A stretch of DNA of 39,598 nt, taken from NCBI GenBank assembly GCA_944372445.1, contig CALVZE010000006.1, positions 1 through 39,598 of the forward strand, read 5' to 3'. The translations under genes and the position numbers were made by a program. Below, one piece after another: positions 1 through 39,598 of this stretch. This stretch comes from an uncultured Clostridia bacterium. GTDB taxonomy: Bacteria > Bacillota > Clostridia > Christensenellales > UBA1242. The notes below the pieces were generated by a model. The model worked only from the letters and a program-made list of their open reading frames with translations. It ran no database searches and was not told the DNA's origin. Position 1 is the stretch's first letter. Each line of letters begins with the position of its first letter.

Positions 1-1659
1 GTGGTTATGAAATTAAATCCTATGCCAAGAATGGACAGCGAAAAGCAGATTGATAAGGCAATTATGGAAATGGAGTCAAAACTTGGCAAAGCGGGCAGAA
101 GTTCAACACAGATTGACTATCAAACTCACCTTGACACTTTAAGACAGTTACTTGTAAGTTTGAAGAACAATAATGAACAACTTTTTAATGTAAACACTTA
201 CATAACAAGTGAAGAGTCGGCAAAGAAAGATGTTAGGGCTATGCTAAAACAACAAGGTTTTAGATATAGCGAAATGTTCTCTCGTCAAATTGATGGTTTT
301 ATTTCTTCTAACATCTCTCGCCTTGACACCATGAAATCGACCATGCGTGGTATTCCAACAACCACTCTTGCGGCAGCATTTCCATTTATCTCAAACTCGT
401 TGCAGGATGAAAACGGTATGTATTTAGGAGATAATGAATACCCTGTTTTTGTCGACTTTTTCAAGCGTGACCGCGAAAGAGTTAACTCAAACATGATGAT
501 TATCGGAAAGTCCGGTTCTGGTAAAAGTTATGCGACCAAGACACTTCTTACCAACCTTGCCGCGGACAACTGTAAGATTTTTATTCTTGACCCTGAAAAT
601 GAGTATAAGGCTTTGACCAAAAATCTAGGCGGTAAGTTTATCGATGTTGGCTCATCTCTTCAAGGAATTATCAATCCTTTCCATATTATTACATCACTTG
701 ACGCTTCTGAAGATGAAAAGGTGGAGTATGACGAATACGGCGAGGTTATTGAAAAGGAAATTGTTGAAAATGTCGATGACTCTTTTGCTCAACACTTGCA
801 ATTCTTAGAGCAGTTTTTCAGAGTGATACTAGAAGGTATCAATTCTGACGCGTTTGAGGTCTTAAACTCCTTGATTATTGATATGTATAAAGAAAAGGGG
901 ATTGATTACAAGACTAATCTTTCAAAGTTTAAGCCAGAAGATTACCCTATTTTTGACGACCTTTATAACCTTATCTTGAAACGCTTAAAGACGGCAAAAG
1001 ACGATTTCTCAATAAGAAATTTAATGACTGTTGAAACATATATTAAGAAATTTGCCACGGGTGGGCGTAATAGTGCTCTATGGAATGGACCGACTTCCAT
1101 TGAAACGAATGAAAACTTTGTTACCTTCAACTTCCAATCTTTGGTTGCGGGAAATAACCCAACGGTTACTAACGCGCAGATGCTTCTTGTGTTTAGATAT
1201 TTGAATAACGAAATTATAAATAACAAAGACTTCAATGCCAAATATCATAAAAACAGAAAGATTATTGTTGCGGTCGATGAGGCGCATATCTTCATTAACC
1301 CTAAATATCCTATCGCGCTTGACTTCATGGCGCAAATGGCTAAGCGTATCAGAAAATACGGCGGTATGCAAATTGTCATCACTCAAAACCTTGCGGACTT
1401 CATTGGCACCGATGAAATTAAAAGGCAATCGACTGCCGTTATTAACGCTTGTCAATATTCCATGATTTTCTCGCTTGCTCCAAACGATGTTAACGATTTA
1501 ACCGAACTTTATAAAAAGTCGGGCGGTATTAACGAAGAGGAGCAAAACTCTATTGTTACCGCTGGCGTTGGTCAGGCCTTTCTTATAACAGGACCAACAT
1601 CCAGAACGACAGTGCAAGTTGTGGCAAACGATTATGTTAAACAGCTCTTTGGTGGCTGA
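1..1659 (+). CDS. VirB4-family conjugation/type IV secretion ATPase (5' end outside window)
   Basis: This is the C-terminal part of a VirB4/TrbE/TraE-type ATPase, the cytoplasmic motor that energises conjugative or type IV secretion. The 552 visible residues contain Walker A GKSGSGKS at 169-176 and a Walker B-like strand IIVAVDEAH at 421-429, followed by an arginine-rich RKYGG and an ITQN segment typical of the RecA-like fold of this family. Residues 1-150 look like the end of the N-terminal VirB4 domain. Family members are usually 600-850 aa and the frame is open to the first base, so the GTG at position 1 is probably not the true start. The stop TGA at 1657 lies 13 bp before the next gene, so the two are likely co-transcribed. 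It may belong to an integrated conjugative element or a domesticated T4SS extending to the left; no other T4SS component is visible here. Confidence 0.88.
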   Translation: MVMKLNPMPRMDSEKQIDKAIMEMESKLGKAGRSSTQIDYQTHLDTLRQLLVSLKNNNEQLFNVNTYITSEESAKKDVRAMLKQQGFRYSEMFSRQIDGFISSNISRLDTMKSTMRGIPTTTLAAAFPFISNSLQDENGMYLGDNEYPVFVDFFKRDRERVNSNMMIIGKSGSGKSYATKTLLTNLAADNCKIFILDPENEYKALTKNLGGKFIDVGSSLQGIINPFHIITSLDASEDEKVEYDEYGEVIEKEIVENVDDSFAQHLQFLEQFFRVILEGINSDAFEVLNSLIIDMYKEKGIDYKTNLSKFKPEDYPIFDDLYNLILKRLKTAKDDFSIRNLMTVETYIKKFATGGRNSALWNGPTSIETNENFVTFNFQSLVAGNNPTVTNAQMLLVFRYLNNEIINNKDFNAKYHKNRKIIVAVDEAHIFINPKYPIALDFMAQMAKRIRKYGGMQIVITQNLADFIGTDEIKRQSTAVINACQYSMIFSLAPNDVNDLTELYKKSGGINEEEQNSIVTAGVGQAFLITGPTSRTTVQVVANDYVKQLFGG

Positions 1660-1672
1660 TAAAAGGAGCGTT

Positions 1673-4600
1673 ATGACCAAACTTTATAAAAATATCATAT
1701 TAAGTGTGCTAACCGCAATCGCTTTTGCCTTTGCAGGCCTCTTTTTTGTTGGTTGTAATAAGGTAGATTATTCTGATGTGACAATCGCTTCAAATATTTC
1801 ATCTATAAATTTGCAAGTGGGCGAAAGTCAAAATGTTACATTTACCATAGAAAATGCTACTGACTCTTTTTATAAAGTTTTAAGATTTTCGGTAGATAAT
1901 GAGAGTGTGGTTAAAATATCAAGTGTTAAATATGATGATAATGTTGCCACAGTTTCGATTGAGGGACTAGCTGGCGGAAGTGTCAATTTGATGGCGACAT
2001 CAGAAGAGGGATATAAGTGGACAACCATTAGAATTAATGTCATAGAACACTCATCTTCATTGTCGTTTGACGGAAGTAAATTGTATCTTACAAGTGGCAA
2101 TGAAATCTCTGAGGCAAGCGCATTAAAGCTTACAAGCAGTAACTATATCTTTGACGCCAACACAACAGACAAGGCGCTAACTTTCTATTATCTATATCAG
2201 AGCGAAAACGCAGATTCTGTAAATATCGGAACGCTTACTTTTAAGGGCTTTGCCAGCGGAACCGACTTCGATTTTAGTGATGTTAATAATATAGGTATGC
2301 CTAGCGAGCCGACTTTGGAGTTTGAAGGCGAAAATACGGTGGAATACAATTTGAATGCGCTTAGATTTGATCGTGCTGAAATTGTAAACGGGGTGCTTAA
2401 CCTTTATTATAATGGCGAAATTGTGGCAAATAGCGATGCAAACAGCGAATTACATTTGTCTAGTTTAAGTGAGGCATTACGCACTCAAAAATTTCACATC
2501 ATTACATTTTATAATTACTCTATTTATGAAAATTCTAACTTGTTGGTCAAGAATTATCTTCATTATATGCACGAAGTGGAGATTTACCAAAATTTAGGTG
2601 TTAAAGTCTATGGAGGTTATTTAAAAACAGAAGGAACAGGTGTTGAAGAAAGTAGGACTGTTGACTTCTCTTCGGAATATGATGTTGATAGTAAGATAAA
2701 AATTGTAACAAACAATAAGGATTATAGCACTTATATTTTAAAAGTGACAACGGCTGTTGAAATTGAAGATTTGGAGTTTGGTATTGGTAATGTTGGAGAG
2801 TTATTATCTATTGAAACCTACACCCGTGAAGCGTGGGGAGACCTTAAAATTGGCGAAATCAATTCTACTACTACAACCGATAATGTTTTTTATATAATGA
2901 TTAATACTTCATCTTTTGCAAACAGCGAGCAAAAATTTGATATTTTTGTTAGATATGAGGGGATGGAGAGCGTTGAAAATGACTTTAATGTCAACTTCAA
3001 CCCTGAAATTTCTGTCGATGTGAACCTTGTTGCAACGGAAATTCTTTTAAATGATGTCAGTGCAACATCTTATAGCTCTGTAGATGATCGTATTTTAATT
3101 TATAACTTTTATAGATATCCTGAATTTGGTTGGCGTGAACTTAAATTATCGCTTTCCACAGGGCTGGATGCAGAAGCGGTATATTCTTATGCGACTATCT
3201 CATTTGACAGTGAAATAATTGATTTTAAACAAGGCACAAATGGTGAAGTTGTAGATGATGGCAAAATTTTTGATATTTCCACGAGTTTCTTTTATAGAGG
3301 ACGCACAGATGCAACCGAAAGTTTTGGTAATAAATTTACAATAACAATTTATTATTTAATTAAAGAAAACTCGCTTGATGAAAATTCGAATGAGTTGATA
3401 ACGGTTAGCTGTGATGTCTATTTTGATATAATAGCGGGCGCTAACAGTATTGCACGTGATGAAAGATATGGCGCTGGCGGTGAAGTGATTTACATAGATA
3501 TGCAGTCAGAGGGGACGACAAGCCTTGGCGATTATTTACACACCCAAAATGCCTTTCAGGCTGTCACGGTGAGCCATGCATCAGGCGAAAATGTGGTTTC
3601 TTTCATTGTTGATGAAGATTGTTGCCTTCCTAAATATGATGTAAATAATCAAGAGCTTTTATATTACGCTCTTAATCTATCTGTTTCACCTATTAAAACA
3701 GGAACGGGTATGTATCGTGTTATGCTTGACAACGGCGTCTTTGTCAGTGTCACAATTAATGTTATAAACACCTTACAAACGGATAATTTTGGGGTGGAAC
3801 TTGTTTCTTCCGATTATGTTGGCTATTATGAGTATAAAACGACAAGATTTGACGAAGAGGCGACAGAAACTTATACCAACACTTTATTGCTTGAAATTTT
3901 AAACAACACAGATGATTCCGACAATACTTATAGCGTTGTTTATGGCAGTGAGGTCGGCATTAAATTTTATGGCAACATACTATCTGATCCAATTTATACT
4001 TTGGAATATGGTAATGTGCTTTCAGTCGGTTCTAACGGAGATTTGTCATATGTTATAACCACGAGCGAAAACGGTGAGGCATTAGTAACTTTTGAAGTTG
4101 ATGGTTATAAAGTTGATGGACTTTTAAATCGTGGCACTATGTCGGTAAATTATTACATTGAAGCAAAATCCTATTCGCTTTTAGATGAATTTTACCTTAT
4201 GAATGAAGGAAGATATGCCGTTGACAACATTGTTTATTATGGACAAAATCAAAATTCTAACCTTCCACCTGAGGCAACAAGTGTCACTTTTGAGGTTTAT
4301 GCTGAAAATACGGAAGCTTTTGGCTTTTATAAATATAAAATCAGCGATAACTTTATTCAAGATATAATAGACAGCATCGAGATTAATGAGGGAGAACTTT
4401 CTTCATCTAATGCTAACGGTCTTGCTATTGCTCAATTAATACAAGAATTGATTGAAGCGGGCAAGGCTGGGGTGACTAATCCTATCGTGGAAGAAGAAAA
4501 CCCGGTAATCCTTGAAGTTGATGAAAGTTACGTTACATCTGAGCTTCAATATAAGAAATATGATAGAGATTACATTTACTTTTATGCCGATGCTAATTCG

Positions 4601-7600
4601 CGTTCTCTCACCACTTACGCAATAGCGCAGATTAAAATAACTCCAAGTGCAGGGGGACTGACTTCTACTTATCCTCTTTACTTAGAGTTTGACAACGGAA
4701 TTATGTTTGACCTTAAAAACAGCATAACAGAGATTTATACTTATAACTTTAACAACATAGACTACAATATCGAAATTAGTTTTGATAACACATATAGTCT
4801 TTCGGGAGATTTTGGGCCACAAGGTGAATTTGATTTTAGCACCTTTACTTACACGCAAACCGCTGCTGTCAATAGTGATTTTGTTTTGCACTCTTATATT
4901 AGACAAAGAAATTATACCGAAATGCAATACGATGCCAATATTGTCACTTCTGAATATATTGAAATTGAAAGAGTAAGCACTGCGTCAAGTATTGACGAAA
5001 TTGCCTTTACCAACGGCTATTTAAGTGATACCTTTGTTGTGTTTGTCAGCCCAACTGACGCCACAAACATCGACTTGAAAGCACAATTTGTTTCAACAAA
5101 TCAAATATCGCGCGACCTTATTACGACCAACATCGTCGAGCAGGGCGTAGGTGTATATCTAGTGGAAATTTCAGTGGAAGATTTCTACAACGCAAATAGC
5201 GCTATAATTAATACTATCGAAACTGCATTGTCTGGAACGCTTTATATTTACCCAACCGAATGGGGAGAAGATTATTCTGTTTTGGGCGAGCATACGCCAA
5301 TCAAGATAGATATTTCTTATCGAAATGGCTCGGAGGCTAATAGATATATCTTAGACTCTCCGGAAGATGTGCTTGCGATAAATAATAACGAAGAGACGCT
5401 TTCAAGTCACTATGAAATTAGGACTAACATTGATATGTCAACAGTGAAAGGCGAAACAATCGGCTTTGTTATTAATGCTGACGGCAGTCGACAACTTATA
5501 GGTTTTTCTGGCTCAATCGTTGGAACAACCTCACAAGCTGGTATCTCCAATTTTAAGCTGACGATGACACCAAGCAAGGACGCAGATGGCAGTATTTCGG
5601 CATTAGCACCGGGAGAAAATTCTTCTTATTATTATGCTGGACTTTTTGCTCAAATAAATCATGACGGCTACATAAAAAATCTGACGATTTCTGGCGTTAT
5701 GGATATGAATACGACAGGATATGAAAATCCTAACTTCTATATCGGACTACTTGCGGGAGTAAATTATGGCAAGATTTCAAATGTTAGTGCAGTGGTTTCT
5801 GGTGCCTCAGAGGTATTGGTTTGCAATAGCGGTGAGTTTTGCATAGGCGGACTTGTCGGCTTAAATGGTGTAATAAATTATGACGTTATTGAACATAAAG
5901 CTGGCGAGATTGTTCAAAACTTTAACTCCTATGTAGAAAAAGAAAGCGAGGAAGAGGAAGGAGCTAAGTTTACGATAGAAGATAGGGTGGGCGAATTTGC
6001 AGGACAATCACCAAAGAATATTGCTAACTTTAATGCTAAACTCACTATAACGCTTGATGGCACAGCAACGAGCGCAAGTGTTTATGCAGGTGGTATTGCA
6101 GGTCTTAGTCGAGGCGATATTTATCGAATAGACAACAGCGGGCTTAATATCTATGGCTATGCTTCTTATTCAAGCTTTACAAATATTGAAGTGGATGGCG
6201 GAACAGCAAATGAAATATTTGCAGGCGGAGCCGTTGGTTATTTGCAAGCGGAAGGAAATGTGACCTCTAATATAATTAAGACAACAGAGAATTCTAGTGG
6301 ACCTTTCTATGTGAACGCTAATCCGATTGAATTTAATGACAATGCCTTGCCGAGAGTTACGCTTTTTAACCTTCTAGTTGGCGGAGAAGTGGATGTAAAG
6401 AATAGCGCAGACTCTGTTGCAGTGGGTGGAATTGTGGGCTACGCAGGAGAAAGTGGTCAGCAATCCTATATTCTTGGAAATATTTCTAGGACTTTTGTTC
6501 GTGGTGGCGTTAACACGGGCGGTATCGTTGGTGTTGAAAATAATAATGGCGTTAATGTAAATTATTTACTACATAAAACCGACGAAAATGGTATGTTTGT
6601 TCAAACCGACGAATCTTCACGCGTTGTTTTAGAGAATACTATAAATAAAATTGAAGCCGTTGATGACGGCAGAGGTGCTTTTGATAGCTCCATGATGCTT
6701 TTAAGTGGAAAGATTAAAAAACTTGAACTTAACGATGAAGATTACAAAGACGGAGTAACAGAGAATGTTATCATTGCAATAGGTAATTCTTATGACATTG
6801 AAAGAAATTATAAATCGGATGGAATTGTATATGCTCTTTTTGATGTTTGTTCGTATGTCGATAGAGGGCTTAATAATAACGATGAAATTAATAAAAATGA
6901 CAATTCTCTCACAAGTTATTATGGCGACTATCTAATGTATGACGGTAGTGCTAAGTTTGAGCAATTTGAGTTTAATAAAGCTGAGGCAAATCTCGGCATA
7001 CAAGACAGTATCTATGCCATGAAGGCAGAAAGCGGAAAAGAAAATGTCTTTGTCATGTTTAACTTCAATGGTATGTTGACAGATGATGCAGAGGGAGTTG
7101 CACAGGACTATATTGATGCTTCAAACATTAACAAATTTGCTCCTAATTCTAGTCTTTATCCTTTTGCGTTAGATACGCGTGACGCGCAAATTTTGTCCAC
7201 CTCTACAAATCTTTTAAAGGTGGATGCGGACGGCAGTTTGACAACATATTCAAAAGGGCTTGCAAGTGTTAATTTGCAATCAATTCTAAATGTTCAAAAA
7301 TCAATTAACATCTATCTTTATATAGTAAACTATATGGACACGCAGTCTGAAAATTCTATCTTTTATTCGTCAAACACCACTGATTCGCTTAATATTATAA
7401 GCGGTTCGCAAGTCGTGGTTTATGGCACAAGACAAACCTCTGTCTATGCTGTTCCTACATATCGTCTAGGTGAAGGAAACTTGTCTTATGAGGTGGCAAA
7501 TGGCGAAAGACGAGATGTTGAGATAGACCCTGACGGCACATTCCTACTTAATAATGTCGGCATAAGGCTTAACACAAATGACAGTGTGGTTGTGGATGCC

Positions 7601-10600
7601 ACTTGCGAAAATCCTCTTTACACGACCTATAATGTCAATGGTCAGTCTATTCTTTTCTACGGTAAAGGAGACAATTTGCAGGGCACTGACACTTACAACC
7701 TCACATCTTATTTAGAAACCACTGTTGGCGATGATGTTTATAGGCTGGCTATTGGTGCATCTAAAAATACTGAAAATCCTGGCGTTGACATAAATGTTGA
7801 ATATAAGGAAACGGCGACAGGTATAAATGTGTCCTCAAACCTCATCTCAATGAAAACAAATGATGTTTATAATGAAAAAATTTATGTGACTTCAAGAAAC
7901 AATGAGTTTGTTTATTATGAAATTTTCTTTACTGACAATGATAATAACGAGTATAAAATTCAAGAGAGAATGAGTAACAGCTGGGCAGGTAATATTATAG
8001 AAGACGAACTTGACGATAGTGAATATGAAAATTATGTTCAATCATATGAAAACTATATAAAAAATGGCGAAAATGAATATAATGAAAATCTTTTCAATTT
8101 AGTTATTGATAAGGATGATGTAAATAGGAATAATAATGAATTTTCTTTTGCAATAAGTGTCAACAAGAATAGTTCCATGTATCAAAACAGGAAAAACGTA
8201 AACATCTATGGCACATATCGAATTGTCTTTTATGCGAATGAAATGTATGACGGGGTTCACACAAATTTCATCTTCTATTTAAGTGAAGCAGAAATTACAA
8301 ATGTGGACGCGGTTAATTACTCTAAGATGACCGATATGAGCGTGCGAGATGACAATATTGTGCCTTCACAATATGGACTTTTAGAGATTAATATTGACCC
8401 GATAGAAGCGGAATTTAATACATTTAAAATTGAAAACGACAGCATAAATTACTTAGAGGGCGCGGGTGAAGTTGACTTTACATTCATGTATCAATCTACA
8501 ACCGACGGCGTGATAAGATATCTTCCTGATGTCAACTTCGGTTTAAATATAAATGGCTCATTATCATTCTCTTATGAAGAATATATTGACTATCTTGACG
8601 CAAAAGGAGAAAGTTATAACGGCAAAATCTATGTGCGTTATCTTCTCGGTTCGCTTGGTGTTCAAGATGAGATGCCTATTAGATTTAACATTGAGGTTAG
8701 TTATCTAAGTGGTCAAGTGGAGTATGAAGAAGTCAATTTAACAACAAAGCTTGCTCATTATGCTCACCTTTCCTTTAATGACAGAGAAGAAAGCGACATT
8801 TATTATGTTGCGCGCGGACTTGATTATGAGATGACTCTTGACTTTTATGGTTTTGGTCTTAATGACATCTCAATTACAATGTCAGACGGAAGTATTGCTA
8901 CTCTTGTTGGAGAGGGCAGAGAGCGTTCTTTGAAAATAACTGACAGTGTCATCACTCCGACAGACGATATAGGTTACAAACTTAATATCTATGTCAACGC
9001 GAGCAGAGTGGTGGACAATGTCACTGTGCAATATTCGGAAATTTTGACCGTTTATATCATGGAATTTGTCTTTGACTATCAATATGTCATAGGACAAAAT
9101 GAAGATTTGGTGCGTGGCATGGAAGAGGGCGTTATATCTACCGCGGTTGGCAACGCCTACTCACTTGAAGTCGATATTTGGGACTTCCTTGAATATGATG
9201 ACACAAACAATTCTGTTATTAGGAATGTTCAAGAGTTCATCAATTCTTTGACAAGCAATGCAGAGTTTAAAATTTATGACGCGTCAAGCGGGCGAGATGG
9301 ATTGTTGCTTTCCTCTGACACCAATATAAGAAGTGATTATTATTACATCAACGGCTTGACTTTTACAGGTATCAGACTTTATGAGCCAGAACAAGATATA
9401 TATCACTTTTCAATGGAAGCAAAGTTTGTAAGACGAAATGGGTTATATGTTGTAGATGATGACGCCTTAGACAGTCAAACAATTTACACCGAATTTTCCT
9501 TCTATATTCATCAGCAATCGACAGATGAAAGTCCGCTTCCGATTGAAACTTACGAAGAGTTTATGAATATGGAAGATGGTCAGTATTATATCTTGCTTAA
9601 CGACATTGTTCTGCCAAACTCTGACACAGCACAGCCATTCACTCCAATCACCGCGAATGTGGCAGGATTTGACGGAAATGGCTACTCATTACTTCTCGGA
9701 GGAAATTACACTTTCAGCGGAAGCAATATTGGTGTGTTTGAAACTATTGGTGCGTCAAACGACGATGTTGTGGTTAAAAATCTCACTGTTGAGCTATACT
9801 TAAACACCATATTCACAGTCACAAGCGGAAACTTTACTCTCGGTCTTATAGCTGGCGGTAACAACGCTGTAATCACAAATTGTGAGGTTACAACCAACAA
9901 CAACTCGGCTCTATCGGTGTCCTGCACGGCATCAAGCTCATTTGTTGCGGGCTTTGTTGGAAGAAACAGTGGAATTATCACAAATTCGAGAAGCAGTGTA
10001 AGTATTTTTACAAATGTCAACTTATCAGGTTTTGTCGGCACGAACACAGGCACCATTTCTTCCTCATATTTCCACAAAGGAAGTCTTAGAAATGAAACGA
10101 CAACAACCTCGGAATACACGGCAGGCTTTGTAATCAACAACAGCGGAACGATAAACACCTCTTATGTTTCTGGCGAAGTTAATGACAATGAAGAGGTTTA
10201 CAGCAGAGATGAGAATAGTTTTATAACTTCACACAATGCAATATCTGGCTTTGTGTTCACAAATTCAGGCGTTGTTACTAATTGCTATTCAAACATCTAT
10301 ATGAACAACACAAGTTCTTATGCTTCTGGTTTTGTCTTTATCAATGAATCAGGCGGAGAGGTAAGTTCTTCTTTCTCAACCAGTGTTTTAGCTAGTAACA
10401 GCACGCTTAGTTACGGCTTTGCAAGAGCAAACTCAGGCTCTATCCATGATGCATATTATTTAAAAGATAAAAACATCAACGAGAGCGTTGGAACGGTGGA
10501 AAATGGTCCTAATACTTCTATTGAAGATTTGACTATTGATGAATTTAGTAGTGGCGATGAAAATTTTGCTGAACATTTCCAAAACTTCGTCTTTGTAAAT

Positions 10601-12796
10601 AGCAGAGGTTATAACGCCGTATGGTTCTATAACAACACGAATACTTCGGCATATTATAACGGGCAAAACTTTAATTTAAATAGGCTAGAACTTGTCGCTC
10701 CAAATATCCTCGCGTTCTCTCAAAGATATCTGTATTCCGCAGAGGAAGTAGTTGACCCTGAAACCGGCGTCACAACCGTTGTGTATCATTATGTCAACAC
10801 CGCCGAGAGTGGTGAGAGTGGCTCTATAAACAATCCTATAGTTCTTGATAACGCCGAAAATTTTGAAAACTATATTTTAAATGAAAACAACAACAATCAT
10901 TACAATCATTCTTATTATAGAGTGATAAATAATATAGATTACTCTGAGTATGATAATAACAGCGAACTATTCAAGACGCGTTTCATGGGTTACTTTGAAG
11001 GAAACTTCTTGACAATTTCAAATGTTCACATGGTCACAAGTGAGAGGTTGACATATGCAGGATTTTTCGCAGAAGTCGGCTCTTCGACAAGAGAGGGCGC
11101 TATCGGAACGGTTATGAACTTTAACTTAGAACCTTCTGAAATGGTATTTACAAACACTCAGGTTTCGGGCGGTATTGCTGGACGCGTAGATAATGGCGTG
11201 ATTGCGAATATCAATATCGTGAGCGATGATAATATCATGGTAACGGCAAACAATATCGCAGGCGGTATTGTGGGGCTTGCTGTCGGCAATTATGATATTG
11301 AAAATGTCAATTCTGATGCCTCAGCTAAGGCGACATATATACCAGAAAACGGCAGTAGCAACACCTTTAATGAAAGTAGCACTGATTTTTCAAGAAATTC
11401 CTATGCAGGTTCAGTTGTTGGTGTGGCAAGTGGCAATGGCAGTGTCAACAAGGTGAATGTAAATTCGGGCGTGGCAGTTATTGGTGGAACCTCGGGTGCC
11501 ATTATTGGTATGTTAAGCCGTGAAGCTCGTGCATCCAATTTAACACTTACTGTTGATACAGATTTAATGATAAATGCTTACTATTATGGCGGTTTAGTAA
11601 TAGGTGAAAGTGCAGGAATGGTTGATAATGTGTCTGTCATAGGAACAGGGCTATATGAAACCATCTTCAATAACATTCCAAATGACCCTGTGGCAGTTGG
11701 CGGTGTTGTCGGCTTAATGTCTAATGGCTCATTAAATAATGTTGAGGCTAATCAGAGTTTAAGCCTGTCAGTTGCTACTAATACCTCTGGCGTATCATAT
11801 TTAGGAGGACTAATAGGCTCAGTCGCTGGAAGTGTTGATATTTCAAATGTCGACGTTCAGGGCTCATATATCGGATTTAGCGTGGTCGGAGGCTTGATAG
11901 GTAGCGTAACCGAAGATAATGTGGTTGTTAATTTGAAGAATATTAGTTACACTGACGGTTATCTGGCTGTCCTTTCTACTCAACTATCGAATGCGTCAAT
12001 TGGTGGAGTAATCGGTTCTGCCACAGATTCGGCAAGTATCAATATAACGGCAGAATTGTCAACTTCTTTGAAGACAAATTTAACAGCGTATGCCAACACT
12101 TTGATGAGGGAAAATGATGCTGATAATACCTATCTAGAATTTACAGAAGTATTGAATGCTGGTGAAAATTATGCACTATCTACTGATATGTTCACTAATG
12201 ACGATAGAACCACTCTCAACTCTCAATATGTGAGTGAAGCAAACAAAATCGAGTTTGAAGCTCACGCTCTCGCATATGTATATGGAACCATACTTGATAT
12301 ATATCTAGGCGAAATTGTTGGAAACACTTTGAGCAGTATGGTCAATGTGAATAATACTATAAGCGTTATGACAGCTAATATTGAAAGTTATAATATGGGT
12401 TGTGTAAATCCTGGAACTTATACAGAGAGTGCATACATTACGCAAGGAACCTATAATTATAAATTGCACACCAATAGCGAAACGCTTGACGGCACGGGCT
12501 ACATCTTCACTGATTATCTTGACTTCTCTTCAACAGCCTCGGAAAGCAATGTTGGTCATATCATTCAAGATATTGAGACAACCTATATTCCTTCAACGGC
12601 AGTAGCTGGCGAAGAAGAGGGAACGGTGATAACAACGAATAGCTTTGGCGCAAATTTTGGCGACGATTTCTATGTTTTGCCGATTTATAGTCATAATGTA
12701 AGTTACACTTTCTATATGGAAGGCGGAGAGTCTGACCATAATCTTCACTTGACAAATTACGGAATGGGAGTGAGTGCAAACTTTACTACGCTTTAA
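1673..12796 (+). CDS. giant GLUG-repeat surface lipoprotein (3707 aa)
   Basis: I place the start at ATG 1673, preceded by AAAAGGAG at 1661-1668; an upstream in-frame ATG at 1619 lies inside the ATPase gene and lacks a site. The protein opens with a lipoprotein signal peptide (hydrophobic 8-26, lipobox-like FVGC with Cys28). Residues about 35-125 resemble a bacterial Ig-like (BIG2) domain. Long beta-rich segments follow, interrupted by three blocks with the GLUG pattern (GGIVG/AGLFA, then I-x-N-x-x-V) at about 1223-1630, 2620-2940 and 3047-3476; each opens with the leader typical of GLUG proteins (xxEDxxxIxNN ... NIDxS ... FxGxF). These blocks probably form right-handed beta-helices. There is no LPXTG motif or C-terminal membrane segment, so anchoring would be through lipid on Cys28. 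The role is unknown; an adhesin or cell-contact function is an inference from size and architecture. It follows the VirB4-type ATPase by 13 bp. Confidence 0.85.
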   Translation: MTKLYKNIILSVLTAIAFAFAGLFFVGCNKVDYSDVTIASNISSINLQVGESQNVTFTIENATDSFYKVLRFSVDNESVVKISSVKYDDNVATVSIEGLAGGSVNLMATSEEGYKWTTIRINVIEHSSSLSFDGSKLYLTSGNEISEASALKLTSSNYIFDANTTDKALTFYYLYQSENADSVNIGTLTFKGFASGTDFDFSDVNNIGMPSEPTLEFEGENTVEYNLNALRFDRAEIVNGVLNLYYNGEIVANSDANSELHLSSLSEALRTQKFHIITFYNYSIYENSNLLVKNYLHYMHEVEIYQNLGVKVYGGYLKTEGTGVEESRTVDFSSEYDVDSKIKIVTNNKDYSTYILKVTTAVEIEDLEFGIGNVGELLSIETYTREAWGDLKIGEINSTTTTDNVFYIMINTSSFANSEQKFDIFVRYEGMESVENDFNVNFNPEISVDVNLVATEILLNDVSATSYSSVDDRILIYNFYRYPEFGWRELKLSLSTGLDAEAVYSYATISFDSEIIDFKQGTNGEVVDDGKIFDISTSFFYRGRTDATESFGNKFTITIYYLIKENSLDENSNELITVSCDVYFDIIAGANSIARDERYGAGGEVIYIDMQSEGTTSLGDYLHTQNAFQAVTVSHASGENVVSFIVDEDCCLPKYDVNNQELLYYALNLSVSPIKTGTGMYRVMLDNGVFVSVTINVINTLQTDNFGVELVSSDYVGYYEYKTTRFDEEATETYTNTLLLEILNNTDDSDNTYSVVYGSEVGIKFYGNILSDPIYTLEYGNVLSVGSNGDLSYVITTSENGEALVTFEVDGYKVDGLLNRGTMSVNYYIEAKSYSLLDEFYLMNEGRYAVDNIVYYGQNQNSNLPPEATSVTFEVYAENTEAFGFYKYKISDNFIQDIIDSIEINEGELSSSNANGLAIAQLIQELIEAGKAGVTNPIVEEENPVILEVDESYVTSELQYKKYDRDYIYFYADANSRSLTTYAIAQIKITPSAGGLTSTYPLYLEFDNGIMFDLKNSITEIYTYNFNNIDYNIEISFDNTYSLSGDFGPQGEFDFSTFTYTQTAAVNSDFVLHSYIRQRNYTEMQYDANIVTSEYIEIERVSTASSIDEIAFTNGYLSDTFVVFVSPTDATNIDLKAQFVSTNQISRDLITTNIVEQGVGVYLVEISVEDFYNANSAIINTIETALSGTLYIYPTEWGEDYSVLGEHTPIKIDISYRNGSEANRYILDSPEDVLAINNNEETLSSHYEIRTNIDMSTVKGETIGFVINADGSRQLIGFSGSIVGTTSQAGISNFKLTMTPSKDADGSISALAPGENSSYYYAGLFAQINHDGYIKNLTISGVMDMNTTGYENPNFYIGLLAGVNYGKISNVSAVVSGASEVLVCNSGEFCIGGLVGLNGVINYDVIEHKAGEIVQNFNSYVEKESEEEEGAKFTIEDRVGEFAGQSPKNIANFNAKLTITLDGTATSASVYAGGIAGLSRGDIYRIDNSGLNIYGYASYSSFTNIEVDGGTANEIFAGGAVGYLQAEGNVTSNIIKTTENSSGPFYVNANPIEFNDNALPRVTLFNLLVGGEVDVKNSADSVAVGGIVGYAGESGQQSYILGNISRTFVRGGVNTGGIVGVENNNGVNVNYLLHKTDENGMFVQTDESSRVVLENTINKIEAVDDGRGAFDSSMMLLSGKIKKLELNDEDYKDGVTENVIIAIGNSYDIERNYKSDGIVYALFDVCSYVDRGLNNNDEINKNDNSLTSYYGDYLMYDGSAKFEQFEFNKAEANLGIQDSIYAMKAESGKENVFVMFNFNGMLTDDAEGVAQDYIDASNINKFAPNSSLYPFALDTRDAQILSTSTNLLKVDADGSLTTYSKGLASVNLQSILNVQKSINIYLYIVNYMDTQSENSIFYSSNTTDSLNIISGSQVVVYGTRQTSVYAVPTYRLGEGNLSYEVANGERRDVEIDPDGTFLLNNVGIRLNTNDSVVVDATCENPLYTTYNVNGQSILFYGKGDNLQGTDTYNLTSYLETTVGDDVYRLAIGASKNTENPGVDINVEYKETATGINVSSNLISMKTNDVYNEKIYVTSRNNEFVYYEIFFTDNDNNEYKIQERMSNSWAGNIIEDELDDSEYENYVQSYENYIKNGENEYNENLFNLVIDKDDVNRNNNEFSFAISVNKNSSMYQNRKNVNIYGTYRIVFYANEMYDGVHTNFIFYLSEAEITNVDAVNYSKMTDMSVRDDNIVPSQYGLLEINIDPIEAEFNTFKIENDSINYLEGAGEVDFTFMYQSTTDGVIRYLPDVNFGLNINGSLSFSYEEYIDYLDAKGESYNGKIYVRYLLGSLGVQDEMPIRFNIEVSYLSGQVEYEEVNLTTKLAHYAHLSFNDREESDIYYVARGLDYEMTLDFYGFGLNDISITMSDGSIATLVGEGRERSLKITDSVITPTDDIGYKLNIYVNASRVVDNVTVQYSEILTVYIMEFVFDYQYVIGQNEDLVRGMEEGVISTAVGNAYSLEVDIWDFLEYDDTNNSVIRNVQEFINSLTSNAEFKIYDASSGRDGLLLSSDTNIRSDYYYINGLTFTGIRLYEPEQDIYHFSMEAKFVRRNGLYVVDDDALDSQTIYTEFSFYIHQQSTDESPLPIETYEEFMNMEDGQYYILLNDIVLPNSDTAQPFTPITANVAGFDGNGYSLLLGGNYTFSGSNIGVFETIGASNDDVVVKNLTVELYLNTIFTVTSGNFTLGLIAGGNNAVITNCEVTTNNNSALSVSCTASSSFVAGFVGRNSGIITNSRSSVSIFTNVNLSGFVGTNTGTISSSYFHKGSLRNETTTTSEYTAGFVINNSGTINTSYVSGEVNDNEEVYSRDENSFITSHNAISGFVFTNSGVVTNCYSNIYMNNTSSYASGFVFINESGGEVSSSFSTSVLASNSTLSYGFARANSGSIHDAYYLKDKNINESVGTVENGPNTSIEDLTIDEFSSGDENFAEHFQNFVFVNSRGYNAVWFYNNTNTSAYYNGQNFNLNRLELVAPNILAFSQRYLYSAEEVVDPETGVTTVVYHYVNTAESGESGSINNPIVLDNAENFENYILNENNNNHYNHSYYRVINNIDYSEYDNNSELFKTRFMGYFEGNFLTISNVHMVTSERLTYAGFFAEVGSSTREGAIGTVMNFNLEPSEMVFTNTQVSGGIAGRVDNGVIANINIVSDDNIMVTANNIAGGIVGLAVGNYDIENVNSDASAKATYIPENGSSNTFNESSTDFSRNSYAGSVVGVASGNGSVNKVNVNSGVAVIGGTSGAIIGMLSREARASNLTLTVDTDLMINAYYYGGLVIGESAGMVDNVSVIGTGLYETIFNNIPNDPVAVGGVVGLMSNGSLNNVEANQSLSLSVATNTSGVSYLGGLIGSVAGSVDISNVDVQGSYIGFSVVGGLIGSVTEDNVVVNLKNISYTDGYLAVLSTQLSNASIGGVIGSATDSASINITAELSTSLKTNLTAYANTLMRENDADNTYLEFTEVLNAGENYALSTDMFTNDDRTTLNSQYVSEANKIEFEAHALAYVYGTILDIYLGEIVGNTLSSMVNVNNTISVMTANIESYNMGCVNPGTYTESAYITQGTYNYKLHTNSETLDGTGYIFTDYLDFSSTASESNVGHIIQDIETTYIPSTAVAGEEEGTVITTNSFGANFGDDFYVLPIYSHNVSYTFYMEGGESDHNLHLTNYGMGVSANFTTL

Positions 12797-25394: not shown

Positions 25395-25461
25395 AATTAG
25401 AATTAATCAAAAAGAAGTTTTATCAAGGACGTTGTTTGATTAAAATGGACAACAAACAAAA

Positions 25462-25503
25462 AGAGAGATCATATTGAAATTGTAGTCAATATGTTCTTTT
25501 TTT
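25462..25503 (+). terminator. rho-independent terminator of ftsZ
   Basis: CATATTGA at 25470-25477 pairs with TCAATATG at 25486-25493; after one T-T mismatch the stem continues through AGAGA/TTCT with wobble pairs, followed by a T run to 25503. Confidence 0.75.
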
Positions 25504-25672
25504 GTCGTCCTGAGAGAATACGGCTTAATTTTTGAGATTCTTCGACCAAACGCATTTTGGATGTTTGTGTTTTATAACTCAAACTGCACTCTCTGAGATG
25601 TTTCGACGGCGGTCGTTACACTCCCATGCTCAACATGACGAAAGTCACATTCAAATTAAAACCTCTTTAAGT

Positions 25673-25715
25673 AGCGACCAATTCGCCAACGGAGTGCGAA
25701 TTGCGTTTGGTCGCT
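25673..25715. repeat. AGCGACCAA palindrome, copy 1
   Basis: AGCGACCAA at 25673-25681 pairs with TTGGTCGCT at 25707-25715, with an inner TTCGC/GCGAA stem. A reverse-oriented copy lies at 37552-37594, where the inner pair T-A is replaced by C-G, keeping the pairing. Confidence 0.8.
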
Positions 25716-25785
25716 GAAAGGAGCAAACAAATGAGTGATAAGTGATTTGATGAAAAGCAAATCACGAAATGAAGTGCAGTTTGCG
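25716..25785 (+). repeat. TAAG-stem-CGAAA hairpin module, copy 1
   Basis: AAAGGAGCAAACAA leads to ATGAGTGATAAG, then the perfect stem GTGATTTG (25742-25749)/CAAATCAC (25758-25765), then CGAAATGAAGTGCAGTTTGC. The same flanks with different stem sequences occur at 30481-30555, 37684-37752 and, inverted, 37450-37515. Confidence 0.75.
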
Positions 25786-25919
25786 ACGCCGTCATCCTGA
25801 GCAGGAACGCTTTGCGTTCCGTCGTCGAATGATCTAAAAAAATAAGGCTTAATTTTTGAGAATTTTGCTAAGTTTAGTCTTACAGCAAAAAGATTTTTTG
25901 GTAATTTTCAAAAATCATT

Positions 25920-25947: not shown

Positions 25948-25970
25948 AACTCTATAATAAAGGAGTTTGT

Positions 25971-28900
25971 ATGAGTGGAAAAATGAAAAGAATTTTAGTT
26001 TGTCTATTTTCTTTCCTTTTTGTAGGTTGTTCCATCGCTGGCGGAACAGTATTACTTTCAAACTCCTATATCAGCGATAATACCGGGGGGGGGGAATCGT
26101 CATCTCCCGAAAATGAAATAGAGAAAAACGCACCGACAAACACCGATTTTTGGACAGACGCTGGAAATTATGCTGACTCGTTTGCGGGAGGCGATGGAAC
26201 ATCAACAGATCCTTATCAAATTACAACAGCCGAGCAACTTGCGAGGTTGGCCTTCTTAATAAACGATTCTTCTACAAATTCTACATATAAATCGCTATAT
26301 TATGATGTAACTAGTGATATTGATTTATCCCTGCACTATTGGGAGCCGATAGGAAATAGGTCTTATAATTTTTCCGGTCACCTAAATGGTAAAGAACATG
26401 TTTTTACTGGGGTTTTTACGAATGTTGAAGGTAGTAACCAAGGGTTGTTCGGTTATTTACGTGGTGCTAACATTTGTAATTTAAGTATAGCAAATTCTGA
26501 AATTGTAGGAACATATTATGTTGGCTCGGTTGCAGGTTATGCTTCGAATACTACAATTTATAATTGTCATAACCGTAGCCCGATTGCTGGGGTATTTCAT
26601 TCGACAGTTAGTGATTCGTATATAGGCTCTGGCGGTGGAATTGTTGGGTATTTATCTGACTCTTCTTCCAAAGTATATAAATGTAGCAATTCTGGAACGC
26701 TAGATGGTGAAAGGGCTGGTGGAATAGTGGGTTATGCTACAGGTGATGCTCAAATTTATGACTGTTTTAACGAAGGTGTAAGAAATGTTGATAACAATAA
26801 GTTTGTAGGTGGAATAGCATACAAGATTAATTCCGCTGAAATTTATAATTGTTACAATACTGCTAGAATTAATGGATATGGCGCGGGAATAGTTTCGCAG
26901 GTTGAAAATGGTTCGGTTCAATATTGTTATAATACTGGAGTCATCGCAAACATAAACAGGTTTGGGGGCGGAATTGCACGTGAAGTTATTGGAAGTGGTA
27001 CTATATCAAATTGTTATAATACAGCGATTGTTTATGGCGGTGGCATAGTTGCAGATTTGACTTCTGGTGATGTTACTAAGTGTTACAATACAGGTAATAT
27101 TTATACAGACGGTGGCTTAGATTGCGGAGGAATAGTTGCGTGTTCAGAGGGAGATATTGGTTTTTATATAGCTAATTGCTATAATACTGGGACTATCACA
27201 CAAAAGGGAATAGGAAATGTTGGTGGCATTATTGGGAGCGGAGAAAACGGCTCTGTGCATCTCTCATACAACATAGGAGAAGTTGTAAATTATACAACTA
27301 TAAGTGTTTCCCATCCTGGAAGGACAGGGGGTATTATAGGAGAAAGTTATCATTGCAATATAATTAATTGTTTTGTTTTAAGTAATATAAGCACTAGATA
27401 TTTAGAGCCGGGTGCAATAGTAGGGTATCATTATGGTCAAGATGTTGATAATACTTCATATTATATAAGAAACTGTTATTGGGGTGGAGATTGTGCGCTT
27501 GAAAATGTTGTAGGTGCTTCATCAAGTTATGTTAGCGATTGTGGAACTTGCACTTTTGAGGATGCTAAAACCTTAACATGGTTTATACACGGCAAATGGT
27601 GTATTTCATATGAAACATATAAATGGAATTTTTTAACTACTTGGCAAATTGATAGTGATATAAATCAAGGTTATCCAACATTAAAATTTCCACAAGCAAT
27701 TAAACCAGATGCTTCAGAGCCAGATAATACATCAATTTTTTGGACTGATAACGGAATTTACGCAGATAGTTTTGCAGGTGGGGATGGAACAGAAGACAAT
27801 CCTTATTTAATTTCAACATCAGCACAACTCGCAAGGCTAGCATATTTAATTAACAATAGTAGCACAAATGCAGATTATAGAAACCTATATTATAAGCAAA
27901 CTACCAATCTTGATATGTCGGCTTATTGGTGGGATGCAATAGGAACTTCATCGGCTCGTTATTTTAGTGGAAACTTCGATGGTGGCGGGTTTACCATTTC
28001 AGGGCTCTACACACAATCAGGAATGACTTCAACTTATAATTATCAAGGATTGTTTGGATATGTACGAGGGATAAATAGTTCGTCTTATGCAGAAATTCAT
28101 GATGTAGGCATCATAGATTCAAATATACGCGGTTATGATTATGTGGGGGCTATATCGGGAGGGGCTGATAGGTATGTCATTATTAATAACTGTTATAATA
28201 AGGGAACGGTAACTGGCAATGATAGTATTGGTGGCATAGTAGGCGAAAGCTGGGGATATAGGCCTATCTCTACTACTGAGCACAATCAAATATATAATTG
28301 CTATAACGAAGGTGTTATAGTTGGAATAGATTATGTTGGAGGTATTGTTGGTCGCACTCATAGGACTGCGGTTTATAGTTGTTATAATTTGGGAGAAATA
28401 AATTCTAATGAGTATGTGGGAGGTATTATAGGTTGGGCTCAAGAAGATGCAATGATATATAATTGCCATAATATAGCAAAAATTTCAGGTGGAAGTGAAG
28501 TTGGTGGGATTGTAGGATCGTTTTCGTCAACCAGTAGCGATATTGATCTATACAATTCATATAACGAGGGTGAAATTATTGGCGTGCTCGATTGTGTGGG
28601 CGGAATTATAGGTAGCTTTAGTGATGGCTCTATCTACAATTGTTATAACAATGCCAACGTAACCAGTCGGGGTGGCGAATATATAGGTGGAATTGCTGGA
28701 GAGATGAATAGTGATGGCTCTATTTATTTGTGTTACAATAAAGGTAATATAAGCGGTTATAATACAGTTGGTGGAATTTTAGGAGAAATTCGTATTTCAA
28801 TCAACACTGAGGTAGTAAATAACTTTAATGTGGGTGCGGTAACTGCAAATGGAAGTTATGTTGGAGGTGTAATCGGCAGGTCTTCTCAAGATTATAATTA

Positions 28901-30332
28901 TTGCGGAGGAAATTGCACTGTTGACGTGAACGATGCAAACATTATGACAAACGCAAAAACACTTAGTTGGTATCAAGATAGTAGTAAATGGAGTCCGGAT
29001 TATACATGGGATTTTGATACTGTTTGGATGTTCGCAGAGGGGATAAATGATGGTTTTCCGATTTTTCGTGGATTTTTGATTGAAGTTACTTATTATTCAA
29101 ATTTTGGAAACAACGATATGCAAAGTGTTTACTTCAATCGAGGAGATAGTATAACTATTGAAGATACAAATTTATTTACTCGCACAGGCTATCACATCAA
29201 AAGCTGGAACACAATGGCGAATGGCGGTGGGCTGACTTATATGCCTGGTGATGTTTATCGAGGCAGCAATGGTTTGACGCTCTATGCTCAGTGGGAGGCT
29301 GAGATTTATACAATTACACTAAATAAAAATGGTGGAACTGGTGGCACAAGCACGATATATCTAAAATACGAAAGTGGTTGGTATTCTAATAGTTCTTGCA
29401 CAAATTCCATTACGTCAATCACAAAACCAACGTGCGCCGGGCTTACTTTTAATGGCTATAATACAGCACTAAATGGCACGGGAACAACTCTGATTGATGC
29501 CAATGGTGATATAATAGCAAGTGACACATTTTACTCTACCGATGATACAAAGACGATATACGCACAATGGCTAGCGAACAATAAGGCATACTTTGATGAT
29601 GAAGGTGGATATTGGTATGTAGAGTTGGGCAAAATGCCACAGAGCAAGGTGTCCGAATTATTAAAGTCAACATTATCTTCTAATTGGGCAAGCTTATCTA
29701 CTGGTGATATTTATTATTTCGCTGGGATGGCATTAACTTCAAAAGTGCATAACAGCAAAGAGTATTGTCAGTATAACGAAGAGTATTACTTAGTCATGCC
29801 GATTAGGTGGCGACTTGTATATTCGTCAAGTCAAACCTCTGGTTACGGCACAACGACCGATACACTTGCAGTTATGGATGAGATTGTCTATGTTGACGCC
29901 TTTTCAGATAGTTACATCGGAGCGGGTGCGGGTTATTCAAGTGAAAGCGTGACGGAGTTTATGAAAAATCAAATTGATAGTTCATACCTAGTAAGCGAAA
30001 GTAAGAGTATGTCGACCTTTGGCTCGACTTCGCTTAATGGCACTGCGAAGAGTGTGTCCGGTAATATGTTTGTGGCGTCATATGATGACCTTTCGAATTT
30101 TACAACAAACAAAAATGGAACGGAAAAGCTTGGAAAGATCAAGTTTTCAGACCTAACAAAAGACTACCTTAGAGCAAATGGCAAAGATACACTATATTAC
30201 ACACGCGACCTAGGGAAAAGCTATAATCACATCTACTGCATGAACGCCAACGGCGACAGGGTGCAGTATAAGGCACAAAACTATTTCGGCGTGCAGTTTA
30301 CGATTAAAGTGACGGAATACGCCTGCATTTAG
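25971..30332 (+). CDS. GLUG/InlB-repeat surface lipoprotein with a poly-G tract (1453 aa)
   Basis: ATG 25971 follows AAAGGAG. The N-terminus is a lipoprotein-like signal (KRILVCLFSFLFVGCSIAGG). Directly after it, codons 39-42 contain ten consecutive G (26085-26094), a slippage-prone tract. Two homologous modules follow, starting with FWTD(A/N)G at Phe60 and Phe590, about 530 residues apart. Each has the leader YADSFAGGDGT..(D/N)PY.I.T..QLARLA and about ten GLUG-type turns (GGI(V/I)G ... I-Y-N-C-Y-N-x-G), with a Cys at the same place in most turns. Residues about 1038-1113 and 1113-1202 look like InlB B-repeats ending in LYAQWEAE and IYAQWLAN. Residues about 1203-1453 resemble a DUF6273-like domain (YVELGKMPQ ... 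MPIRWRLV). It is likely a cell-surface adhesin-like protein; the function is inferred. A paralogue starts at 39513. Confidence 0.9.
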   Translation: MSGKMKRILVCLFSFLFVGCSIAGGTVLLSNSYISDNTGGGESSSPENEIEKNAPTNTDFWTDAGNYADSFAGGDGTSTDPYQITTAEQLARLAFLINDSSTNSTYKSLYYDVTSDIDLSLHYWEPIGNRSYNFSGHLNGKEHVFTGVFTNVEGSNQGLFGYLRGANICNLSIANSEIVGTYYVGSVAGYASNTTIYNCHNRSPIAGVFHSTVSDSYIGSGGGIVGYLSDSSSKVYKCSNSGTLDGERAGGIVGYATGDAQIYDCFNEGVRNVDNNKFVGGIAYKINSAEIYNCYNTARINGYGAGIVSQVENGSVQYCYNTGVIANINRFGGGIAREVIGSGTISNCYNTAIVYGGGIVADLTSGDVTKCYNTGNIYTDGGLDCGGIVACSEGDIGFYIANCYNTGTITQKGIGNVGGIIGSGENGSVHLSYNIGEVVNYTTISVSHPGRTGGIIGESYHCNIINCFVLSNISTRYLEPGAIVGYHYGQDVDNTSYYIRNCYWGGDCALENVVGASSSYVSDCGTCTFEDAKTLTWFIHGKWCISYETYKWNFLTTWQIDSDINQGYPTLKFPQAIKPDASEPDNTSIFWTDNGIYADSFAGGDGTEDNPYLISTSAQLARLAYLINNSSTNADYRNLYYKQTTNLDMSAYWWDAIGTSSARYFSGNFDGGGFTISGLYTQSGMTSTYNYQGLFGYVRGINSSSYAEIHDVGIIDSNIRGYDYVGAISGGADRYVIINNCYNKGTVTGNDSIGGIVGESWGYRPISTTEHNQIYNCYNEGVIVGIDYVGGIVGRTHRTAVYSCYNLGEINSNEYVGGIIGWAQEDAMIYNCHNIAKISGGSEVGGIVGSFSSTSSDIDLYNSYNEGEIIGVLDCVGGIIGSFSDGSIYNCYNNANVTSRGGEYIGGIAGEMNSDGSIYLCYNKGNISGYNTVGGILGEIRISINTEVVNNFNVGAVTANGSYVGGVIGRSSQDYNYCGGNCTVDVNDANIMTNAKTLSWYQDSSKWSPDYTWDFDTVWMFAEGINDGFPIFRGFLIEVTYYSNFGNNDMQSVYFNRGDSITIEDTNLFTRTGYHIKSWNTMANGGGLTYMPGDVYRGSNGLTLYAQWEAEIYTITLNKNGGTGGTSTIYLKYESGWYSNSSCTNSITSITKPTCAGLTFNGYNTALNGTGTTLIDANGDIIASDTFYSTDDTKTIYAQWLANNKAYFDDEGGYWYVELGKMPQSKVSELLKSTLSSNWASLSTGDIYYFAGMALTSKVHNSKEYCQYNEEYYLVMPIRWRLVYSSSQTSGYGTTTDTLAVMDEIVYVDAFSDSYIGAGAGYSSESVTEFMKNQIDSSYLVSESKSMSTFGSTSLNGTAKSVSGNMFVASYDDLSNFTTNKNGTEKLGKIKFSDLTKDYLRANGKDTLYYTRDLGKSYNHIYCMNANGDRVQYKAQNYFGVQFTIKVTEYACI
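26085..26094 (+). repeat. G10 homopolymer tract inside a coding region
   Basis: Ten G in a row encode Gly39-Gly41 and the first base of Glu42, just behind the signal peptide. Gain or loss of one G would frameshift the rest of the 1453-aa protein. Confidence 0.9.
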
Positions 30333-39512: not shown

Positions 39513-39598
39513 GTGAAAAGAATAAAAAATATGAAAAGATTTTTAATATGTCTATTTTCCTTTTTATTTATAGGTTGTTCCATCGCTGGCGGAGCGGT
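39513..39598 (+). CDS. start of a second signal-sequence paralogue of the 1453-aa lipoprotein (3' end outside window)
   Basis: Only 28 codons are visible. GTG 39513 has AAGGAG at 39498-39503; an in-frame ATG at 39531 is too far from that site. The encoded MKRFLICLFSFLFIGCSIAGG nearly equals residues 5-25 of the protein at 25971, and the DNA is identical over more than 20 bp around the lipobox. It is therefore expected to be another surface lipoprotein of this family. Where the poly-G tract would lie is beyond the window end. Confidence 0.75.
   Translation, partial: MKRIKNMKRFLICLFSFLFIGCSIAGGA

Follow-up and report, generated by a model that had tools for sequence, protein, structure and literature searches.

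The window, a stretch of 39,598 nucleotides, is the start of contig C6 in a 1.12-Mb assembly of an uncultured Clostridia bacterium (37 contigs, 99.7% complete). The gene of interest runs on the forward strand from an ATG at 25971 to 30332 and encodes 1453 aa; by open reading frame, Pfam match and fold model its product is an exported GLUG-repeat beta-solenoid protein. Judged by this gene, the nearest named relative is Candidatus Caccovivens faecavium, also of the Clostridia. A probable ribosome-binding site, AAGGAG, can be read ahead of it at 25960..25965 (forward strand) and is common to a paralogous copy on contig C2. The gene opens with a 5' cassette for the export signal and a short linker (25971..26084), followed by ten consecutive G (26085..26094) and by the body of the protein (26095..30332), all on the forward strand. 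The G10 tract fills codons 39–41, extends one base into codon 42, and is the sole G or C run of at least 7 in the window; its placement in codons 39–42 of a 1453-aa gene, given in a preliminary description, is borne out by the sequence and its reading frames.

When tract length was varied in silico, G10 gave 1453 aa, G9 gave 49 aa and G11 gave 48 aa, in agreement with the earlier expectation that nine or eleven G would end the protein early. G7 and G13 also kept the frame open. The body is thus read only with a tract of G7, G10 or G13, and the assembly holds the gene in frame (ON).

The 5' cassette recurs nearly unchanged in the C2 paralog (91% protein identity, with DNA alignment) and is partly kept in a third copy at the very end of the window (39528..39598, forward strand). 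Only the start of that third copy is present, with 82% identity to residues 4–25, because the contig ends before its tract. Upstream of the G10 gene, the intergenic stretch at 25400–25900 holds a direct repeat of 33 nt (82%), with copies at 25510 and 25834, and an inverted pair at 25538 and 25699. Elsewhere in the window, a 3725-aa ORF (1619–12796) has an export signal ending FFVGC, no Pfam match and no G tract; it encodes a very large surface protein and adjoins an ATPase of VirB4 look.

The encoded protein and its family copies

The Pfam Glug profile matched the window protein at 1.9e-21 (75.3 bits against a cut-off of 20.5), placing it among GLUG-repeat proteins (PF07581), and the same scan gave a weak Flg_new match. 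An AlphaFold2 model built on a thin alignment of four sequences (mean pLDDT 75.8, pTM 0.80) has a regular beta-solenoid strand pattern over residues 50–570. Its best structural matches in the PDB were beta-helical parts of IgA1-protease-type proteins, at TM-scores of 0.10–0.37, which are too low to support more than a fold class, so we claim no enzymatic role. GLUG repeats and a beta-solenoid are common to these proteins and to the window protein; unlike IgA1-protease-type proteins, the window protein had no protease domain in the Pfam scan, and the structural match is weak. The export signal and repeats suggest that the protein is located at the surface or secreted. The preliminary description had called it a surface lipoprotein: the length and export signal stand, and the lipoprotein label is uncertain, as the signal region holds a possible but atypical lipobox (LFVGC) whose cysteine is absent from homologues in three relatives (G036, G002 and G077).

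The earlier suggestion that matching tracts be sought in other genes of the family gave a positive outcome, with G9 in the C2 paralog and G7–G11 in the five-copy families of two relatives. The C2 paralog and the window gene match in the bases just upstream, in the signal peptide and in the flank that leads to the tract. At the same place the paralog has G9, so that its signal peptide and its 822-aa body, itself intact, lie in different frames; this body carries the same GLUG and Listeria-Bacteroides repeats as the window protein. Relative G069 has five copies with a near-identical cassette and tracts of 9, 10, 7, 8 and 10, of which the G9 copy alone is in frame; G036 also has five, with tracts of 9, 8, 11, 9 and 10 and one in frame. 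None of the nine tract-bearing copies found in G002 is in frame, eight having G9 and one G8, and in G077 one copy of nine is in frame, with G13. Counted over these relatives and the source genome, five genomes in all, the 30 family copies divide into 4 in frame and 26 out of frame. Tract lengths for both ON and OFF states therefore occur, as seen among paralogs and related species rather than strains of one species. Related surface genes in G084 (L259–L262) carry G9 or G10 in a promoter spacer and not behind the signal peptide, suggesting that the same genes may be switched there by a different route. Homologues in G064, G067 and some of those in G032 have no tract.

A contig scan for another strain yielded a related species (Caccovivens, L070), whose contig begins a few codons 3' of the tract. 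Assemblies thus break at or beside the cassette both in the window contig (39528–39598) and in the related contig (L070 1–10); since the repeated cassette breaks assemblies, family copies are probably under-counted.

Out-of-frame bodies are kept intact under purifying selection. No internal stop was found in 22 OFF bodies totaling 45 kb and spanning about 300 to 1244 aa, where neutral drift would be expected to bring about 2300 stops for each substitution per site. This implies a short mean time since last selection and bounds mean OFF time to roughly 0.0013 substitutions per site, with the caveat that each OFF body was defined by the longest frame left open beyond the tract. In well-aligned blocks, dN/dS between the window body and the C2 body was 0.21. 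It was 0.20–0.25 for pairs of OFF copies within G069 (680–790 aligned codons, 82–84% identity) and 0.11–0.46 over all family pairs, where restriction to well-aligned blocks biases the values of more distant pairs downward.

G and C runs in frames and promoters

The source genome contains 13 G/C runs of at least 8, including 6 of at least 9, and the window G10 is the longest. In a 144-kb sample picked to include every run of at least 8, counts fell through lengths 3–7 (801, 135, 21, 2 and 1) and then rose to 7, 5 and 1 at lengths 8, 9 and 10. A decay fitted on lengths 3–7 only predicts 0.9 runs of at least 8 and 0.15 of at least 9 in the whole genome. The repeat is thus longer than genome composition predicts, as expected of a slipped-strand locus.

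Export signals precede or contain four of the tracts: the window G10, in frame, and G9 on C2, G9 on C28 and G8 on C29, all out of frame. Two more come early in a gene, a G9 in a PfkB-family kinase on C3 and a G9 in a protein without Pfam match on C13, both in frame. Another is intergenic on C12, and on C8 a gene carries one at its 3' end. This last, a G9 at C8:13725 (L025 4726–4734), overlaps the start region of the next gene and is about 5 kb from mutL and mutS.

The other five tracts occupy spacers of 15, 15, 16, 16 and 18 between TTGACA and a box resembling TATAAT. C5 carries three of them, and C12 and C16 one apiece; the window gene itself is not among these loci. Only 0.25% of random positions satisfied the same strict promoter rule. 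Two of the five promoters precede similar lipoprotein-like genes. From their position, the spacer tracts would affect expression only and not coding. Perfect TTGACA and TATAAT boxes with G8 or a longer run between them gave 67 matches, spread over 35 of 297 genomes from the order; a reversed-pattern control gave none in the same genomes. Outside the order the pattern had 2 matches in 372 genomes of the class (Fisher p about 3e-11). Spacer lengths across the order lay between 12 and 23, most often at 16, in a range whose middle the search pattern itself favours. In G055, similar promoters stand before long open frames with G18 in one (L226 2471, spacer about 25) and G10 in the other (L236 2475, spacer 17); they are likely to form an OFF/ON pair of promoters, belonging to a different family within the order.

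The poly-G tract set is restricted to the lineage. A single genome of the genus can hold as many as 25 exact-G9 tracts, which lie partly in promoters and partly behind export signals. Tract-bearing genes in relatives include glycosyltransferases, an acyltransferase-like protein, surface families and housekeeping-like genes. In G001 an in-frame G9 (L135 2502–2510) lies inside an apparent thymidylate kinase, an essential enzyme and an odd site for an unstable tract. We considered loss of mismatch repair as a cause and rejected it: MutS and MutL were each found in 60 of 61 genus genomes, and both are present in the source genome.

A proposed slipped-strand switch and its alternatives

We interpret the G10 tract as, very probably, a slipped-strand phase-variation switch and one locus of a multi-locus set. 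Slipped-strand mispairing in replication would remove or add one G and shift the frame just behind the export signal. Tracts of G7, G10 or G13 would yield the full 1453-aa exported beta-solenoid protein, and other lengths a peptide of about 47–50 aa. Because the same 5' cassette heads several paralogs, a set of loci would be switched in this way. In promoter spacers, a change in poly-G or poly-C length would alter the spacing of the -35 and -10 boxes and with it transcription. The phase-variable surface protein proposed in the preliminary description finds support in the tract lengths of the paralogs, in intact OFF bodies under purifying selection and in the promoter-spacer tracts; toggling of expression by a one-unit change is an in silico result, through truncation of the frame by G9 or G11. 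Fast, reversible switching in living cells, with surface variation as its use or benefit, is what we infer from these results. Against a switch stand the presence of MutS and MutL, the tract-free homologues and the occurrence of some G9 tracts in housekeeping-like genes.

Mismatch-repair genes that are intact would also suit a slower process, in which lengths change on evolutionary time, between lineages, and too rarely within a population to amount to phase variation. Such frame drift has a precedent in Propionibacterium acnes, whose G/C tract lengths mostly follow clades (PMC4746626). It accords poorly with five near-identical cassettes of four different lengths in one genome, and with the stop-free OFF bodies, which hold mean OFF time to roughly 0.0013 substitutions per site, subject to the longest-open-frame caveat; we regard it as improbable. 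That the assemblies show 26 of the 30 family copies out of frame could instead mean that RNA polymerase or the ribosome slips on the G run in a programmed manner, so that all copies are expressed somewhat. The copies would then need different shifts, with G7, G8, G10 and G11 standing beside an in-frame G9, and many tracts lie in promoter spacers where they have no coding role, so programmed slippage is less likely; we give it very little weight.

The same 26 of 30 might be dead pseudogenes, with the tract a chance glycine linker. This we find scarcely credible, as bodies of about 300 to 1244 aa have no stops and dN/dS well below 1, and tract length is their sole lesion. Homopolymer errors of sequencing or assembly could produce length differences as well: all the genomes are drafts, contigs break inside or beside the cassette, and runs of G18 and longer at contig ends in some members of the order resemble artefacts. 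Indel errors cannot, however, yield the excess of runs or their placement behind signals and in promoter spacers, and tracts occur inside contigs, on both strands and in independently assembled genomes, which makes error a highly improbable source. Slipped-strand switching remains our preferred reading of the tract.

A more speculative proposal within phase variation is that the family forms the surface coat of a commensal, with one member displayed at a time: many paralogs share a 5' cassette whose G tract would slip, and selection would favour cells in which no more than one copy is in frame. In-frame copies numbered 1 of 2, 1 of 5, 1 of 5, 0 of 9 and 1 of 9, or at most one ON in each of the five genomes. 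The probability of this under independent random phases is about 0.004, a figure that assumes independence for copies that share ancestry and are read from assemblies that are population consensuses. Shared ancestry and a preferred G9 length would also give at most one ON. We hold such a coat to be doubtful and treat the one-ON pattern as a lead, not a result.

Comparison with known systems

According to a 2025 review, multi-locus phase-variable genomes appear confined to pathogens, a pattern that it singles out as a major question. Our literature search, over open-access sources, found no report of phase variation in this order, Christensenellales, or in this lineage. Slipped-strand phase variation is an established mechanism; what appears to be new is a multi-locus set of this kind in an uncultured gut lineage of Clostridia. 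The lineage comprises uncultured Clostridia of roughly 1 Mb, related to Candidatus Caccovivens from chicken gut, with intact mismatch-repair genes. Such tract-rich genomes with intact mismatch repair make the question testable with existing metagenome reads. A practical consequence is that annotation pipelines will label most of these surface proteins as pseudogenes or split genes.

In Neisseria porA and opc a homopolymer lies between -35 and -10, and its length changes the spacing. Homopolymers between these boxes also occur in this lineage of uncultured Clostridia, where their length may affect expression. In Campylobacter jejuni the surface-related genes of a small AT-rich genome contain numerous G runs, each about 8 to 11 long, and the species is generally held to lack MutS/MutL repair. 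The source genome is like it in its many frame-toggling G runs and surface-related genes, but the lineage belongs to a different phylum, has both MutS and MutL, and carries many of its tracts in promoters. The principle of frame toggling by poly-G is set out for C. jejuni contingency genes (PMC8437040).

Propionibacterium (Cutibacterium) acnes has almost only G/C tracts, in frames and promoters, with lengths mostly by clade (PMC4746626). It is a Gram-positive commensal and in the placement of its tracts resembles the Clostridia lineage, whereas here near-identical cassettes differ in length within one genome. In a Gram-positive commensal, then, such tracts may vary slowly, by clade. In the vlhA family of Mycoplasma gallisepticum, GAA repeats lie in the promoter region (PMC6258824), in contrast to the G runs in the coding part here. 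That lipoprotein family shares with ours many paralogous surface proteins and repeat-based control, with few expressed at a time, a likeness that for our family concerns predicted frames only. Multi-gene switching sets are known mainly from pathogens; here about a dozen tracts are found in the small genome of a gut bacterium.
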